Assembly: GCF_002209355.2 (NCBI RefSeq)
Contig: NZ_CP106855.1
Location: 1,674,001 to 1,738,000, forward strand
From: Bdellovibrio sp. SKB1291214
GTDB lineage: Bacteria; Bdellovibrionota; Bdellovibrionia; Bdellovibrionales; Bdellovibrionaceae
DNA: 64,000 nt
Direction of reading: 5' to 3'
A program made the position numbers and the translations under genes. This document shows, piece by piece, positions 5,457 through 12,211 of this stretch. Below the pieces are notes generated by a model, which was given only the letters and a program-made list of their open reading frames with translations, made no database searches and was not told the origin of the DNA. Every line of letters begins with the position of its first letter. The stretch's first letter is position 1.

Positions 5457-6311
5457 ATGGACATGGAACAATCCCAAAACTTCAATATTCCAGCATCTAC
5501 CCTGAAAGTGACGGCTCAAGCAGGTCGGCCGATGCTGGGTGATTTCATTCAGATCAATCTGTTCTCCGAGGGTGATTACGAACCCCTTCTGACGTTCACT
5601 TTGCAAAAACTAGCGGAAGTGGAAAGCATCTTGAATCTGGATGATCCTCAATCCGAAATTTGCCGAGTGCTGACGGTGGAGGGCGATGATTCCTTCGAAA
5701 TGAGCAAACCTGTCGCTGAAGTTTTAGAAAAAGCTTTGGATATCAGTGCTTTATCAGATGGATTTTTTGAACCGTTTCGCGAAGACTCGCGCAATTTAGA
5801 CCTTCGAAGTCTGATTCGTGGGTATATGATCGATCAAGCTGTGAAAAATATCTTAAGTAAAGAACAATCACTGATGGGGATGGTTCACTTGGCGGAGGGA
5901 ATTCGCTTCTTTAACTGTCCTAAAAAATCAATTCACGTGCGCATGCATAGTTCTGACGTCGAAAAAGAACTGGGTCTGTTTAAAGATGCTATCTCCACGA
6001 CCGAATCGCGAGGCAGCTTATTCGATAGCGAATCCTCAACTTTGTATATTCATCCATTAAGAGCCGGCTTAAGTGGTCGCCACACAGTTTCGGTCATTGC
6101 AGATAACTGTATGAGCGCTAATGTTCTTACAAAAATCGGGATGTATGCTCCAAAAAAGGTCATCCAATCTTGTGTTGCCGAAATGGATGCACAGATCATT
6201 GTTTTTGGAGAATCAGGCGAGATCGAAGAAATCTTTGAAGACGCTAAGGCATATAGCTTTGATCAAGGGCACATTTCTTATTCGTCTTATGACGATAGCA
6301 ATAGGGACTAG
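5457..6311 (+). CDS. ApbE-like protein, probably without FMN-transferase activity
   Basis: The order of segments matches the FAD:protein FMN transferase (ApbE) family: LAEVESILNLDDPQSEICRV, then SDGFFEPF, then LDLRSLIRGYMIDQAV, then AISTTESRGSLF, then a terminal helix with MSANVLTKIGM. Key family features are altered. The Gly-rich GGIAKG loop reads RSLIRG, the NAGGD-type motif reads LAEGI, and the metal-site Asp of the D-A-x-x-T motif is Asn in SANVLT. I infer a non-catalytic or divergent member. No signal peptide is seen. The start is uncertain: ATG at 5457 or 5463, both lacking a clear ribosome-binding site, with a TTG at 5442 inside the upstream terminator. The 3' end overlaps the convergent nuclease gene by 68 bases. 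Confidence 0.65.
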   Translation: MDMEQSQNFNIPASTLKVTAQAGRPMLGDFIQINLFSEGDYEPLLTFTLQKLAEVESILNLDDPQSEICRVLTVEGDDSFEMSKPVAEVLEKALDISALSDGFFEPFREDSRNLDLRSLIRGYMIDQAVKNILSKEQSLMGMVHLAEGIRFFNCPKKSIHVRMHSSDVEKELGLFKDAISTTESRGSLFDSESSTLYIHPLRAGLSGRHTVSVIADNCMSANVLTKIGMYAPKKVIQSCVAEMDAQIIVFGESGEIEEIFEDAKAYSFDQGHISYSSYDDSNRD

Positions 6312-6765
6312 TAAGATTGTTGTCAGACCAAATCCCAAGACGTTGATTTCTTGCTTCATCAACGGACGCAAGATAACGACCCTTTGAGTATTTGGTAGAA
6401 TCATAGGCCCAACCATTTTGAACGATCATCAAATTAACATTCTTATCGCCGATGAAAACAGTACAAGTAACACGATCAAAAGACTTTCCATCGCACTCTA
6501 GATTTACTTGTTTTCCTCGAACGACGGATTCAGTGAAATCACGCGCTTGCTTGCCATACTTTTGCGAAAGCTCAGGGCAATCGATCCCCGCAAAGCGAAC
6601 CTTGGCTATTTTATTTCCAACCTTCACACGACAAGTATCGCCATCATGACATTTCTCAACCACGCCGGATAGAAATTGAGTTTTATTTTGTTTTCTTTTT
6701 TTTGCCTCTGCTGAAAAAACAGAAAAAGAAAGCGCCACTGCCAAAATCAAAGAAGTAAATCTCAT
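6244..6765 (-). CDS. secreted thermonuclease-like (SNase family) protein
   Basis: Staphylococcal-nuclease fold enzyme, a calcium-dependent phosphodiesterase acting on DNA and RNA. 173 residues with a signal peptide of about 21 residues (MRFTSLILAVALSFSVFSAEA), so probably periplasmic or secreted. Catalytic-site landmarks are GDTCRVKVG (metal Asp), VRFAGIDCPEL (Arg and metal/general-base region) and FDRVTCTVFI (second Arg). Its C-terminal 22 codons overlap the ApbE-like gene on the other strand. A role in degrading prey nucleic acid is plausible, and pairs with the nucleoside salvage genes at 27902-30724, but this is inference. Confidence 0.9.
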   Translation of the reverse strand: MRFTSLILAVALSFSVFSAEAKKRKQNKTQFLSGVVEKCHDGDTCRVKVGNKIAKVRFAGIDCPELSQKYGKQARDFTESVVRGKQVNLECDGKSFDRVTCTVFIGDKNVNLMIVQNGWAYDSTKYSKGRYLASVDEARNQRLGIWSDNNLTSPYCYRHKTNKKCALDQSYMP

Positions 6766-6948: not shown

Positions 6949-9354
6949 TTAAGCTGCTAGAGATTTAGTTTTCTTAGCTTCTTTCTTAACGCCGTTCTTT
7001 TTAGCATCTGTAGCAGCATTTTTATCGAACGCTACTGCGAACACTTCATCAAGATTTTCGGCGAAGATAAAGTTAATCTTGTCTTTGAATACTTTTGGAA
7101 TATCAGCCAAGTCTTTTTTACAAGCCATTGGGATGATGATATTCGTAATACCAAGGTTCAAAGCTGCAAGACACTTCTCTCTGATACCACCGACAGGAAG
7201 CACGCGACCTTGTAGTGTCACTTCACCAGTCATTGCCAAGTCATGGCGAACTGGAGTGCCTGTCATCAAACTTACAAGCGCAGTTGTAAGAGTGATACCT
7301 GCAGAAGGACCGTCTTTAGGGATCGCACCTGCTGGCAAATGGATATGGATATCGTACTTTTCAAAGAAGTCCTCTGGAATATTGAGTTCTTCCATGTGAG
7401 CTCGAGCATAAGACATTGCTGCGTGAGCAGATTCTTTCATCACATCGCCAAGTTGGCCTGTAAGTGAAAGATGTCCTTTACCTTTCATTTTCAAAGCTTC
7501 AACAGTCAACACTTCACCACCAGCTTGTGTCCATGCAAGACCTTGCACAACACCTACTTGAGAGTCAGCGATCTTGTCGTCGCGTTGGAAGCGTGGAGGA
7601 CCAAGAAGCTCTGGAACTGTCGTAGCGTTTACTTCTACGAATTTCGCTTCTTCCATTACCACCATCTTCGCAACTTTACGGCAAACTGAACCTACTTCGC
7701 GCTCAAGGTTACGAAGACCTGCTTCGCGAGTGTAGCCAGCGATAAGGTATTTGATACCTTCATCAGTGAAACTGATGTTCTCTGGAGTGATACCATTTGC
7801 TTCGATTTGTCTTCTGATCAAATGCTTTTTAGTGATCAAAAGTTTATCGTTCTCTGTGTAACCAGGGATGTTCAAGATTTCCATACGGTCACGCAATGCT
7901 GGTGGGATATTCTCCAACACGTTAGCAGTAGCGATGAACAACACGTTTGAAAGGTCGAAATCCACATTCAAATAGTTATCACGGAAAGTCGCATTTTGTT
8001 CTGGATCCAAAACCTCAAGCATTGCTGCTGAAGGGTCACCGCGGAAATCAGAACCCAATTTATCAACTTCATCTAGTACGATAACTGGATTGTTTGTTTT
8101 CGCTTGGCGAAGAGCTTGGATAATTTTACCTGGCATCGCACCAACATAAGTACGGCGGTGACCACGGATTTCCGCTTCGTCCTTCACGCCGCCCAAAGCG
8201 ATACGGAAGTATTCACGGCCCATCGCGCGAGCGATAGATTTACCAAGAGATGTTTTACCTACACCTGGAGGACCACCAAAGCACAAGATAGGTCCTTTAA
8301 GGTCTGGCTTCAATTTTCTAACAGCCAAGAATTCCATGATACGATCTTTAGCTTTTTCAAGCTCATAGTGATCTTCATCAAGAATTTCTTTAGAGCGTTT
8401 AAGATCGATATGATCTTCAGATTTTTTGCTCCAAGGAAGATCCGCCATCCAGTCTAGGTATGTACGAACCATTGTTGCTTCAGATGCATCTGGATGCATG
8501 CGCTCCAAACGGCCCAATTGTTTCATTGCTTCAGCTTCAACATGCGGAGGCATGCCAGCGTTAGTCAACTTGTCGCGAAGTTCATCCATCTCTTCAGATT
8601 TAGAATCTTGTTCGCCAAGCTCGTTCTTTATAGCCTTCATTTGCTCGCGCAAGAAGTATTCACGTTGAGATTTGTTAGCGTCCTCTTTTGCATTTGGACG
8701 ATTCTTCTGTTGAGTTTGCATAACTTCAAGCTCAGCAGCCAAAATCTCAGTAACGATTTTAAGTCTTTCAGTTGAATCATGAGTCTCAAGAACTTTTTGA
8801 GCGTCCTGAACTTTGATACCTAGGTTTGATGCGATCAAGTCAGCAATACGACCTGGATCAGTGACATCGTCTAGTACCAACAAGATGTCTGGAGAAAGAG
8901 GGCGACCCAAAGCGATGATGCGCTCGATGTGCTCTTTCGCAGTTCTGATCAAACCTTCGTTTTCTACAACAGATTTTTGATTTGGGATTTCTTCGATTTT
9001 TTCAACCGCAACTTCGAAAGAAGGATTTGTCTTAGAGTAGTTTTTTACACGACCCTTAGCTACACCTTGAATCAAGATTTTTACGCGACCATCAGAAAGT
9101 TTACGCATTCTCATGATCATCGCGATTGTACCTACTGTGTAGATAGAATCTGGAGTTGGATTTTCTTCGGAGATATCTTTTTGTGATGCAAGGAAGATAA
9201 GGCGATTTTTAGCTAAAGCTTCCTCAACAGAACGGATTGAAGAATCGCGACCTACAAACAATGGAATGATCATGTAGGGGAAAACAACGATGTCTCTCAC
9301 AGGTAGCATTGGAAGTGTCTGTGGGATTTCTAGAACTTTATCGTCAAAACTCAT
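6949..9354 (-). CDS. lon: ATP-dependent Lon protease
   Basis: Cytosolic AAA+ serine protease that degrades misfolded and regulatory proteins. 801 residues, typical length. Domain order: LON substrate-binding domain (about 10-200), coiled linker, AAA+ module with Walker A GGPPGVGKTS (360-369) and Walker B VIVLDEVDK (424-432), then the protease domain with catalytic Ser684 in PKDGPSAG and Lys727 in GGIREKCLA. A Lys/Ala-rich tail (about the last 25 residues) follows. The start is preceded by GGAGGAG 4-10 bases upstream. It is monocistronic: a terminator follows, and the upstream gene has its own stem-loop. Confidence 0.98.
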   Translation of the reverse strand: MSFDDKVLEIPQTLPMLPVRDIVVFPYMIIPLFVGRDSSIRSVEEALAKNRLIFLASQKDISEENPTPDSIYTVGTIAMIMRMRKLSDGRVKILIQGVAKGRVKNYSKTNPSFEVAVEKIEEIPNQKSVVENEGLIRTAKEHIERIIALGRPLSPDILLVLDDVTDPGRIADLIASNLGIKVQDAQKVLETHDSTERLKIVTEILAAELEVMQTQQKNRPNAKEDANKSQREYFLREQMKAIKNELGEQDSKSEEMDELRDKLTNAGMPPHVEAEAMKQLGRLERMHPDASEATMVRTYLDWMADLPWSKKSEDHIDLKRSKEILDEDHYELEKAKDRIMEFLAVRKLKPDLKGPILCFGGPPGVGKTSLGKSIARAMGREYFRIALGGVKDEAEIRGHRRTYVGAMPGKIIQALRQAKTNNPVIVLDEVDKLGSDFRGDPSAAMLEVLDPEQNATFRDNYLNVDFDLSNVLFIATANVLENIPPALRDRMEILNIPGYTENDKLLITKKHLIRRQIEANGITPENISFTDEGIKYLIAGYTREAGLRNLEREVGSVCRKVAKMVVMEEAKFVEVNATTVPELLGPPRFQRDDKIADSQVGVVQGLAWTQAGGEVLTVEALKMKGKGHLSLTGQLGDVMKESAHAAMSYARAHMEELNIPEDFFEKYDIHIHLPAGAIPKDGPSAGITLTTALVSLMTGTPVRHDLAMTGEVTLQGRVLPVGGIREKCLAALNLGITNIIIPMACKKDLADIPKVFKDKINFIFAENLDEVFAVAFDKNAATDAKKNGVKKEAKKTKSLAA

Positions 9355-9457
9355 ACCGCTCCTCCGCGTTGATGCGGGAAATGTTTCATGTATGAGACTT
9401 TTCGGAGCGAGGTAGGAAATGCTTGAATGGACTTGATTAGAAAACTGAAAAATTGGA

Positions 9458-9473
9458 CTGACATCCGTGTCAG
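9458..9473 (-). terminator. possible weak terminator after the zinc-finger DksA-like gene
   Basis: Stem CTGACA (9458-9463) / TGTCAG (9468-9473) with a four-base loop; on the minus strand TCCAATTTTT follows. It is short, so termination is tentative. Confidence 0.4.
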
Positions 9474-9503
9474 TGGAACCTCATCCAGTGAGTTTATCCA
9501 CAA

Positions 9504-9875
9504 TTACTGGAAAAGATTTGCCTGGCTTTCTTGTTCTTCCATGCATTCAATACATAGGGCTGTGAAGGGTCTAGCCTGAAGTCTGCGAGCGCCAATTAGC
9601 TCTCCGCATGCTTCACACTGGCCGTAAGTCCCATCAGAGATTTTCCCCAATGCTCTTTCGATTGCATAGAGTGCCGTGCGATCTCTTTCCTGCAAGTGGA
9701 TAGAGATGTTGTTTGCAACATCTTGTGAAGCAACTTCTGCTTCATCACCAGCGCCACTGATGCTGGATTGTTCTGCAATGAACTCGTGTGACTTATTTAG
9801 GATCGAGCCTTTTTGAATTAGCAGCGAATCCTTTAAGTTTTCTAAATCTGTAGCACTTAGTTCGGTTGCGTTCAT
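9504..9875 (-). CDS. DksA/TraR-family transcription factor with four-Cys zinc finger
   Basis: Small RNA-polymerase secondary-channel factor of the DksA/TraR family, expected to act with ppGpp on promoter output. 123 residues: N-terminal helical coiled-coil arms whose tip reads GDEAEVASQ (44-51), then the zinc finger with Cys87, Cys90, Cys108 and Cys111. At the coil tip the Asp equivalent to E. coli Asp74 is Glu, if the alignment is right. The start at 9875 is chosen because GGGGGG lies 6-11 bases upstream; an in-frame extension to 9950 lacks this. It lies just downstream of a paralogue at 10057-10428 but is separated from it by a terminator. Confidence 0.88.
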   Translation of the reverse strand: MNATELSATDLENLKDSLLIQKGSILNKSHEFIAEQSSISGAGDEAEVASQDVANNISIHLQERDRTALYAIERALGKISDGTYGQCEACGELIGARRLQARPFTALCIECMEEQESQANLFQ

Positions 9876-9944
9876 CTCACCCCCCGATATGATGATCATT
9901 CCCGAAAATTCTTGCTCGTTATTACGGGGGATCGGTGGAGTGTA

Positions 9945-9985
9945 AAGCAAAAAGCAGTGCGTGACGAATTAGTAAGCACTGCTTT
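9945..9985 (-). terminator. rho-independent terminator between the two DksA-like genes
   Basis: Arms AAAGCAGTGC (9951-9960) and GCACTGCTTT (9976-9985); read on the minus strand the stem runs into TTTTTGCTTT. It implies that the two paralogues are separate transcripts. Confidence 0.85.
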
Positions 9986-10056
9986 ATTGCGCCGCTGTGA
10001 GAGTGAAAAGTGTCGAGACAGAAAGTGATACAGAAACAGAAAGTGAAACAGATTTT

Positions 10057-10428
10057 TTAACGCGCAAACTTTCTGCTTACTGCCTCGCGCATTTCTGCAC
10101 CCTCGATAGAAAGTCTTGTCCAAGGAATTGCAAGCAATCTATCTGCTTCAATCGGCTCTTCCGTTTCTTCGCAAAGGCCGTAAGTCCCGCTCTCTATGCG
10201 GGAGAGGGCCATCTCGATCTCGAGCAGTTGATTTCTCATGCGCTCTTGCGACACCAGAAAAGTATGTTCCTCGATATGCGCGACCGAGATATCTCCTTCG
10301 TCCCCGGTCTTTTCCGAATGGGTAAACTCCAACTGGGCTGTTCTGAAACGATTCAGAATGTCTTGTTTTGTAAGGATAAGTTTTCTACGGCACTCAGTAA
10401 CAATGTTTTCTGTGATCGGATTTTTCAT
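10057..10428 (-). CDS. DksA/TraR-like protein lacking the zinc-binding cysteines
   Basis: 123 residues, the same architecture and length as the neighbour at 9504-9875. Coil tip is TGDEGDISVA (41-50). The finger positions keep the exact spacing but not the residues: Cys86-x2-Thr89-x17-Ser107-x2-Gly110, against Cys87-x2-Cys90-x17-Cys108-x2-Cys111 in the neighbour. Zinc binding by the usual four Cys is therefore impossible. Pseudomonas DksA2 is a known precedent for a DksA homologue with reduced cysteines that works under zinc starvation; that parallel is inference here. GGGGGCTGTT precedes the ATG. The upstream region has no clear promoter. Confidence 0.85.
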   Translation of the reverse strand: MKNPITENIVTECRRKLILTKQDILNRFRTAQLEFTHSEKTGDEGDISVAHIEEHTFLVSQERMRNQLLEIEMALSRIESGTYGLCEETEEPIEADRLLAIPWTRLSIEGAEMREAVSRKFAR

Positions 10429-10537
10429 AACAGCCCCCTTCTTTGGACTAAGCGGTCTAGTTTGCCGCTTTGTGTTCCTTAGACGGGAAGGTTGAGGGGG
10501 CCGGTTAAAAAAAGTGTATTAAATATTCTTATGTGAG

Positions 10538-12211
10538 CTATTGGCGAATACGCATAGGTGCAATTTCACCTTTTTCCACGGTCAAAGAGACTACAGGGCG
10601 CTCGATCTCGCGCTCAGAGCTCATTGTGAGCGTGCCAAGGGATCCTGGGAACTTCTTAAGACCAATCAGCTTGGCTGTTAATGCTTCGCGCGTGTCGGCC
10701 CCTGAGGCCACTAATTGACGTAAGATTAAGCCAGCGTCATACGCTTGGATTTCAATCAGGGATGGAGCTTCGCCGTAGAGGTTTTTATACTCCGTGATAA
10801 AACGGGATTGATCTTGAGTCATAGGAGCGATTGAATCCACGAACATTAAGTTGTTTGAAAAGTTACCGGCACGTTTTGCAATGCCCGGGGTATTCCATAA
10901 ATTTGTTCCCATTAACTTTACGCCACGAACATCATTGAATGCGAGCATCGCAGCAATTTGGCCCATTGCTTTAGCGCTATCCGGAATAAAGATCGCGTCG
11001 AAATCGGTGATCGGCGGGAGAACATTTTCTGTATTATCTTTGCGGGCAGAACGTTTTTTGTCGGAGTGTTTCAACTCTTTCAAACGCAGATTGAACTCAT
11101 CCTGACGACCTTCTCCGTAGTATGTGCCAACTAAGCGTTGAACCACCAAGCGAAAGTCAGTTTCTTTGGTTGAATAAGTTTGGATTGCCGTAATCTGCCC
11201 ACCACGAGCCAAAACTTCATCCCAGAAGATATTCGTGAATTCGACACCATACTGATCATTTGGATATAATACTGCAAATTTCTTCATGCCCATGTCGTCC
11301 ATCGCTGTTCTTACCAGCTGACGGACTTGCATTTCGCTTGTCAGAGAGTTTCTAAAAACTGTAGGGCCAATTTCGGTTAAGCCAGAACGTTGTGATAAAG
11401 CGATACTAGGAACACCCAGCTCATCAGATTTTGCAGCGACTGCAGGAGCGGTCTTACTTAGCAAACTTCCAACAACCGCAATAACATTGTCTTCTTTTAC
11501 TAATCTTTCTACACCACGACGAGCAGAGTCTGGATTGCCTTCGCTGTCCATGACCGCCAATTTAAATCCCGATCCGGGAACATGAAGCCCTAAGCCCATT
11601 TCAAGGCCGCGAAGCGCGCGTTGTCCTACGGGTGCATTCTTTCCACTGAGTGGAAGAACCACACCGACAGTTTTAGATTGAACGTTTTTAGCAGCATCCA
11701 GTTGCGACAAGATGTCTTTAGCGCGAATTGCCAGATCACTCTCTGGCAAATAGTCGATCACGCCTGCGTAATATTTTTTTGCTTTGGAAATATCACGCTC
11801 TTCAAGGGCTTTATCAGCAAGGCGAGCCATAGCATGTCCACGCAGAAAACCGTAGTCTGAGTTATCAGCAACTTCCTCAAGCTGTTTTTCATTTAGACGA
11901 TTTTCTACATCTTCAATAGCGCGCAAGCGATACACATCTTGCTCTTGTTTTGTGGGAGCTTGAACGGATTGCGCGACCAGGCCCTTAAGTACAGTCAAAG
12001 GATCTTGAGCCACCGGCGCGGTAGGAACTTGAGTGATGGCGGACGGGGGAGCTGTCTGGGGTGGCTTTGCAGCTAACCCTGACATTCCCTTACCCTTTTT
12101 GCCGTTGTTTTTAGTGACAGGAGCTGGCTTGATCTCCGTTTTTTTCGTCGTTGTTGTAGTACAAGAAGCGATTACAAATGCGGAGAAAATCAAAGCGAGC
12201 TTAGATGTCAT
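10538..12211 (-). CDS. periplasmic-binding-fold lipoprotein (LpoA-like / ABC substrate-binding type)
   Basis: 557 residues. A lipoprotein signal ends in FVIASC (Cys17), followed by a Thr/Lys/Pro-rich linker. Residues about 75-175 look like helical TPR-type repeats, and residues about 180-520 form a type I periplasmic-binding domain ([20 protein letters not shown], then [14 protein letters not shown], then [14 protein letters not shown]). The TPR-plus-binding-fold layout resembles LpoA, the outer-membrane activator of penicillin-binding protein 1A, but a Leu/Ile/Val-type binding protein cannot be excluded. Its ATG overlaps the dnaJ TGA (ATGA), so it is the third gene of a grpE-dnaJ operon, an unusual partner. 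Confidence 0.82.

Follow-up and report, generated by a model that had tools for sequence, protein, structure and literature searches.

A Cys-poor DksA-family lineage in Bdellovibrionales that may act without zinc and without ppGpp site 2

The window analysed here, the whole stretch of 64,000 nucleotides from Bdellovibrio sp. SKB1291214, carries two adjacent genes for DksA-family proteins, only one of which encodes a complete zinc finger, and this raises the question of what the zinc-ligand-poor protein does beside its C4 neighbour. Both genes, each encoding 123 amino acids, were found in tandem on the minus strand, as the preliminary description of this DNA had reported. Copy B (10057-10428) is followed on that strand by copy A (9504-9875, taking as its start the ATG that has a GGGGGG Shine-Dalgarno sequence) and then by lon (6949-9354); a gene for a 557-aa protein lies upstream of B, with dnaJ and grpE beyond. 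The names lon, dnaJ, and grpE are presumptive and were given from their sequences. Downstream of lon, the minus-strand frame 6244-6765 looks by eye like a secreted thermonuclease of the staphylococcal-nuclease type. The C4 finger of A (Cys87, Cys90, Cys108, and Cys111; 9543-9617, minus strand) is matched in B by a degenerate finger (Cys86-x2-Thr89 and Ser107-x2-Gly110; 10099-10173, minus strand) at the same spacing, which bears out the earlier claim of a C4 and a Cys-poor protein and is also the spacing of E. coli DksA residues 114/117/135/138 by ungapped offsets. At the E. coli D71..D74.A76 positions, the coiled-coil tip of A reads D-E-A-E-V-A (DxxExA; 9729-9746, minus strand), and that of B reads D-E-G-D-I-S (DxxDxS; 10285-10302, minus strand).

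Both proteins passed the cut-off of Pfam zf-dskA_traR (PF01258; 24.9 bits), A with 41 bits and B with 33.8 bits, and B thus lies inside the DksA/TraR family. Neither reached the 115.5-bit cut-off of the DksA equivalog (NCBIfam TIGR02420; A, 78.7 bits; B, 56.4 bits). The AlphaFold2 models were good (mean pLDDT, 91.4 for B and 89.7 for A), and the coiled coil, globular domain, and C-terminal helix of the DksA fold were present in both. The best PDB match to the B model was Pseudomonas aeruginosa DksA2 (4ijj, Z 13.5), followed by E. coli DksA (1tjl, Z 13.4), over 119-122 residues (VIA-align/Foldseek); DksA2 and then E. coli DksA also headed the matches to the A model (Foldseek). DksA2 is a zinc-free form of the same fold, and since it is the best match to the AlphaFold2 model of B, zinc-free folding of B is plausible. 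Helices 7-36 and 44-80 of B form a hairpin in the model; B is thus full length, unlike the F plasmid protein TraR, which is short (73 aa), has no coiled coil, and carries C4.

Exactly three PF01258 matches (E up to 10) were found in the genome, namely A, B, and a third copy, C, which lies at 3.36 Mb, 1.68 Mb from the pair. From its position, we take C to be probably the counterpart of dksA Bd3519 of B. bacteriovorus HD100. C also exceeded the Pfam cut-off and has a C-T-S-G finger like B, so that the canonical C4 zinc site is absent from B and C and present in A. The canonical DxxDxA tip was seen in none of the three, C having DxxDxT. Pairwise identities were 57.9% for B and C, 33.6% for A and C, and 32.0% for A and B; the word 'twin', used previously for B beside A, is thus inapt, since B is only 32% identical to A and 58% to C. 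The trio, with the tandem B-A and a distant C, was present in all 24 Bdellovibrio genomes searched, and in every one B resembled C more closely than A. Within the genus, C was the best conserved copy (mean pairwise identity, 93.2%, as against 81.6% for A and 79.9% for B). In an 87-sequence tree, the genus B and C copies without A had a support of 0.83, all Cys-poor proteins 0.949, and the C4 copies of the family 0.999, and in a tree of all 254 proteins surveyed below plus E. coli DksA the support for B with C was only 0.07 (supports are from FastTree only). A recent tandem duplication from A to B was considered as the origin of B and was ruled out by the identities and the tree. B would rather go back to an ancient duplication in the Cys-poor lineage that is universal in the order, of which C would be the housekeeping member. 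In one genome of the family (G232, L081), PF01258 matches a fourth protein; this one is C4, scores higher (52.4 bits), and has no Cys-poor gene in tandem.

The distribution of the two protein types was surveyed across the order in 254 DksA-family proteins, drawn from 100 genomes (24 of the genus, 26 of other genera of the family, and 50 from outside the family, taken to sequence out of 72). Three of these 50 genomes fell outside the band of 90% completeness and 5% contamination, and drafts may miss genes. There were 190 Cys-poor proteins, 62 C4 proteins, and two that were unparsed. The C-T-S-G finger occurred in 188 of the 254 (188 of the 190 Cys-poor proteins), so the finger pattern of B is not due to chance. 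Every one of the 100 genomes had a Cys-poor copy, the C4 copy was missing in 39 of the 50 genomes outside the family, and in the 14 of these 50 that have a single copy, this copy was always Cys-poor. Two CBS-domain fusions (L121 and L233) were unalignable and do not enter the residue counts; in the tally of genomes without C4 they were treated as possible C4 copies. The C4 finger match lies inside a longer frame (205-308 codons) in these two (genomes G153 and G200) and in L094 (G044), and the rest of the longer frames of G153 and G200 is CBS-domain-like by eye.

A Cys-poor gene followed by a C4 gene was found at 24/24 C4 loci of the genus, 25/27 of other genera of the family, and, in the sister families f28 and f27, at 6/6 and 1/1. 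Among these 56 tandem loci, lon and the 557-aa gene were both matched in 48, the 557-aa gene alone in five, and lon alone in three, neighbours being matched within ca. 1.5 kb on each side. The tandem and its neighbours are thus shared across families, which indicates that A and B are old; judging from the sequences surveyed, several families have probably lost A. Beyond the order, 30 genomes of the phylum were queried with the alignment of Cys-poor proteins, keeping the best match of each only. Eight of these best matches were C-T-S-G proteins, and the zinc-free lineage thus predates the order. All eight have a DxxDxA tip; replacement of this Ala by Thr or Ser is, in the sequences compared, typical of the order. 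Another 10 best matches were C4 proteins, eight of which have K98, R129, and K139.

These last residues bear on the link to ppGpp. According to PMC7676912, K98, R91, K139, L95, and R129 of E. coli DksA contact ppGpp at site 2, and DksA K98A or R129A binds RNA polymerase and does not support site-2 ppGpp. E. coli numbering was transferred without gaps, from helix and finger spacing. On this numbering, the K98 column of the 190 Cys-poor proteins holds E in 181, D in four, K in two, and another residue in three; the R129 column holds I, L, or V and the K139 column A in all 190, and R91 is retained in 183. B itself has Glu70 for K98, Ile101 for R129, and Ala111 for K139, and C likewise has E, I, and A. 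The A copies of the genus have A or S, R, and M at positions 98, 129, and 139 in 24/24 genomes, only R129 being retained, and the full K98/R129/K139 triad is in none of A, B, and C. It was also found in 0 of 27 C4 copies from the remaining genera of the family, and the C4 copies of f27 and f28 combine DxxDxA with K98/R129/K139 in 7/7.

Zinc ligands can be lost without these residues being lost as well. Proteobacterial controls, drawn from the best 80 of 572 relatives and hence an unfair sample of proteobacteria, have K98 and R129 in 63 of 64, and most of them are Cys-poor (finger C-T-S-A in 58 of 64). Residue 139 is Gln in these controls from the best 80, so that only K98 and R129 are diagnostic. 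Four sequences were left out of the 64: L298 and L317 (wrong ORF), L288 (Opitutales; E, V, and Q in the K98, R129, and K139 columns), and L250 (Bacteriovoracaceae; Q, I, and A). Cys-poor proteins that work as DksA and whose globular domain holds without zinc are known, among them R. sphaeroides RSP2654 and S. meliloti SMc00469 (PMC9239242), and the zinc-finger-less housekeeping DksA of alpha- and betaproteobacteria is a better parallel for the finger of B than DksA2. Such controls, within the best 80 of 572, differ from B in K98 and R129 (63/64), in Phe at the Cys13 column, and in a finger that ends in Ala rather than Gly. There is nothing unusual in a Cys-poor DksA as such; the noteworthy part is the order-wide loss of site-2 residues with Rel kept.

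The other parts of the ppGpp system were examined in the genome. It has a single Rel, encoded by a full-length 738-codon frame, and ppGpp is probably made in the cell, judging from this gene. The rpoZ gene lies ca. 1 kb from the Rel gene on the same strand (L318, L237; ca. 3.1587-3.1601 Mb), and rpoZ is preceded by a gmk-like frame. At site 1, R362 and R417 are replaced by Lys, K615 and D622 are kept, and omega begins with MARV (MAR start kept); ppGpp may bind at this site. The beta-prime side of site 2 is also kept (E677, R678, N680, K681, and D684); from the residues compared, site 2 appears to lack its DksA half. An alternative geometry that binds ppGpp with other residues is possible. Chlamydia trachomatis DksA (6PTG) is likewise zinc-ligand-poor and works in a cell without ppGpp enzymes (PMC10995303); unlike Chlamydia, which has no (p)ppGpp synthesis, the Bdellovibrio genome has a full-length Rel. 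B would share with TraR the ability to act on RNA polymerase without ppGpp, as PMC7676912 describes for the plasmid protein.

Taken together, we consider it fairly probable, from sequence conservation and the predicted fold, that B acts in the secondary channel without zinc and without coupling to ppGpp at site 2, and that it belongs to a lineage which persisted in most of the order after canonical DksA had gone. On this view, B would regulate RNA polymerase from the secondary channel, as DksA does, and its globular domain would need no zinc to fold. Its coiled coil would reach the active site of the polymerase via tip residues Asp43 and Asp46, and Arg63 (R91 of E. coli) would dock it on the beta-prime rim; we infer this binding, and any direction of regulation, from the alignment and the model. 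Since K98, R129, and K139 are replaced by Glu70, Ile101, and Ala111, B would form no ppGpp site 2, and ppGpp from the single Rel would act only via site 1 or other targets. Relative to E. coli DksA (TIGR02420/PRK10778; PDB 1TJL and 7KHI), B and C share the coiled coil, globular domain, and C-terminal helix and keep R91 and both tip aspartates, but they differ in having no C4, a DxxDx[S/T] tip, K98E, R129I, K139A, and no N-terminal 27 residues. A differs from it in the DxxExA tip, K98A, and K139M and keeps C4; it would be a C4 protein related to canonical DksA in which K98 and K139 were lost and the tip is Gre-like. Among the papers listed in a search of mostly open-access literature on Bdellovibrio with DksA, Bd3519, or ppGpp, we saw no study of these residues, and a prior description is possible.

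Two cysteines of the Cys-poor proteins might point to another role. Cys86, the first finger Cys, is present in 190/190 Cys-poor proteins. Cys13 of B (10390-10392, minus strand), in the column of E. coli F40, is kept in the Cys-poor lineage (181 of the 187 proteins with a residue there) and is in none of the 60 C4 copies with a residue there; the column is Phe in all 61 controls with a residue (controls from the best 80 of 572). Cys13 and Cys86 of B and C could form a reversible disulphide or a ligand site, a redox sensor that replaces the zinc thiolate switch of C4 proteins, and conservation of both across the Cys-poor lineage, together with Cys13 in seven of the eight C-T-S-G proteins found elsewhere in the phylum, is consistent with this. 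Such a thiol switch is unlikely, however, as the model puts Cys13 on the first long helix (7-36) and Cys86 in the globular domain, perhaps too distant from each other, and position 13 belongs to the hydrophobic core in other groups, where Cys may be a mere packing choice.

The tips differ among the copies as well. Throughout the genus, B has DxxDxS and C has DxxDxT (24/24 each), the Ala of E. coli position 76 being Ser in B and Thr in C, and given this change the tip activity of B and C may differ or be lost. The A copies have D, E, and A at the tip positions in 23/24 genomes and E, E, and A in one, that is, E at the D74 position and A76 in all 24. DxxExA is the GreA/GreB motif (PMC9239242), and this likeness would fit A being a specialised copy whose tip acts in a Gre-like way when RNA polymerase is paused or backtracked, with C4 kept for stability. 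We regard this as quite improbable, since the tip of the C4 copy varies in other genera of the family (DDV, DDT, DEA, and others) and relaxed constraint is as likely as a new function.

The preliminary description had proposed that B is a low-zinc spare as in Pseudomonas, replacing A when zinc is scarce and induced on loss of Zur repression. Its account of the family, of the C4/Cys-poor pair, and of the terminator between the genes stood; the low-zinc spare was not supported, and we now hold it to be very improbable. A C4 gene does lie beside a zinc-ligand-poor gene that has its own terminator and leader, and the best structural match is DksA2, the zinc-free, Zur-repressed spare of P. aeruginosa (PMC9213440). 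DksA2, however, has a C-T-C-A finger, a DxxDxA tip, and K98/R129/K139, none of which is found in B, and B grouped with the Cys-poor set of its own order with 4ijj outside (FastTree, one DksA2 sequence, 107 residues). The universality of Cys-poor copies in the order, their occurrence alone in 14 genomes, and the absence of C4 from most of the 50 genomes examined outside the family also argue against a spare, and C, the nearest paralogue and a second Cys-poor copy, would make B redundant as one. A search of the window for the Zur-type palindrome gave 15 matches as against 18.9 expected by chance, none of them upstream of B. The two Fur-family proteins of the genome scored 39.8 and 59.8 bits with the Zur model (cut-off, 167 bits), an enterobacterial model below whose cut-off a divergent Zur could fall, and scored best with Fur models. 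A Cys-poor DksA should thus not always be taken for a low-zinc spare. That B is a decaying duplicate of little function, as its lack of the Arg, Lys, and Ala residues that matter in E. coli and its faster evolution than C might suggest, is very unlikely in view of its intact state and its conserved finger residues, tip aspartates, and Cys13 in all 24 genomes of the genus and of the tandem kept at nearly all C4 loci of the other family genera, f28, and f27.

Returning to B as a zinc-free factor beside A and C, the copies are likely under separate control. The strong terminator reported earlier between B and A was recovered as an intrinsic terminator (9951-9985, minus strand) with a 10-bp stem and a T-run (-13.7 kcal/mol; z -3.84; 0/200 shuffles as good), which makes the separate control proposed on that ground probable; our pattern scan misses it since the scan takes loops of 3-8 nt and this loop is longer. 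A candidate promoter of A (9919-9946, minus strand) consists of TTTACA, 16 nt, and TAATAA, and the -35-like TGACA/TTACA and -10-like TAATA upstream of A are conserved in most of the 24 genomes. A consensus promoter scan yielded no promoter-like sites, and hence not this candidate. The block CATCATATCGGGGGGTGAGATGA (9872-9894, minus strand), over the Shine-Dalgarno sequence and start codon of A, is identical in all columns but one in 24/24 genomes. Conservation also extends to two short runs: CCCCCG, which falls within the candidate promoter's spacer and immediately precedes the -10-like TAATA, and CGGGGGG, located where A starts. A hairpin of these two runs that would mask the start of A was tried and rejected (z -0.11; 80/200 shuffles as good); in two of the 24 genomes (L073 and L077) the C-run is altered and the G-run unchanged. 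No Rfam match was found in 9300-10700 at E up to 1. At the C loci (L034 etc.; L078 omitted), about 110 bases upstream of C, a long region is very conserved in 23 aligned genomes; GTTCC and GGAAC can pair there ahead of the Shine-Dalgarno sequence, and both are invariant and so give no evidence of covariation. In B. bacteriovorus HD100, expression of dksA Bd3519 falls on leaving the attack phase, which Lambert et al. link to relief of ppGpp control (PMC2797640).

Tentatively, most of Bdellovibrionales may have dismantled the DksA half of the stringent response and kept Rel. The canonical C4, ppGpp-binding DksA would have been lost or eroded, remaining intact only in f27 and f28 among the families examined, and the zinc-free lineage would drive RNA polymerase without site-2 ppGpp. 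The three Bdellovibrio factors, with their DxxExA, DxxDxS, and DxxDxT tips and distinct leaders, could then split the work, e.g. between attack and growth phases, with Cys13 and Cys86 as a possible redox input. DksA is usually seen as the RNA-polymerase partner of ppGpp, and Rel together with a site-2-less DksA in a predatory order would, if true, be a natural separation-of-function experiment. It would also alter the account of how Bdellovibrio switches between the starving attack phase and the growth phase.
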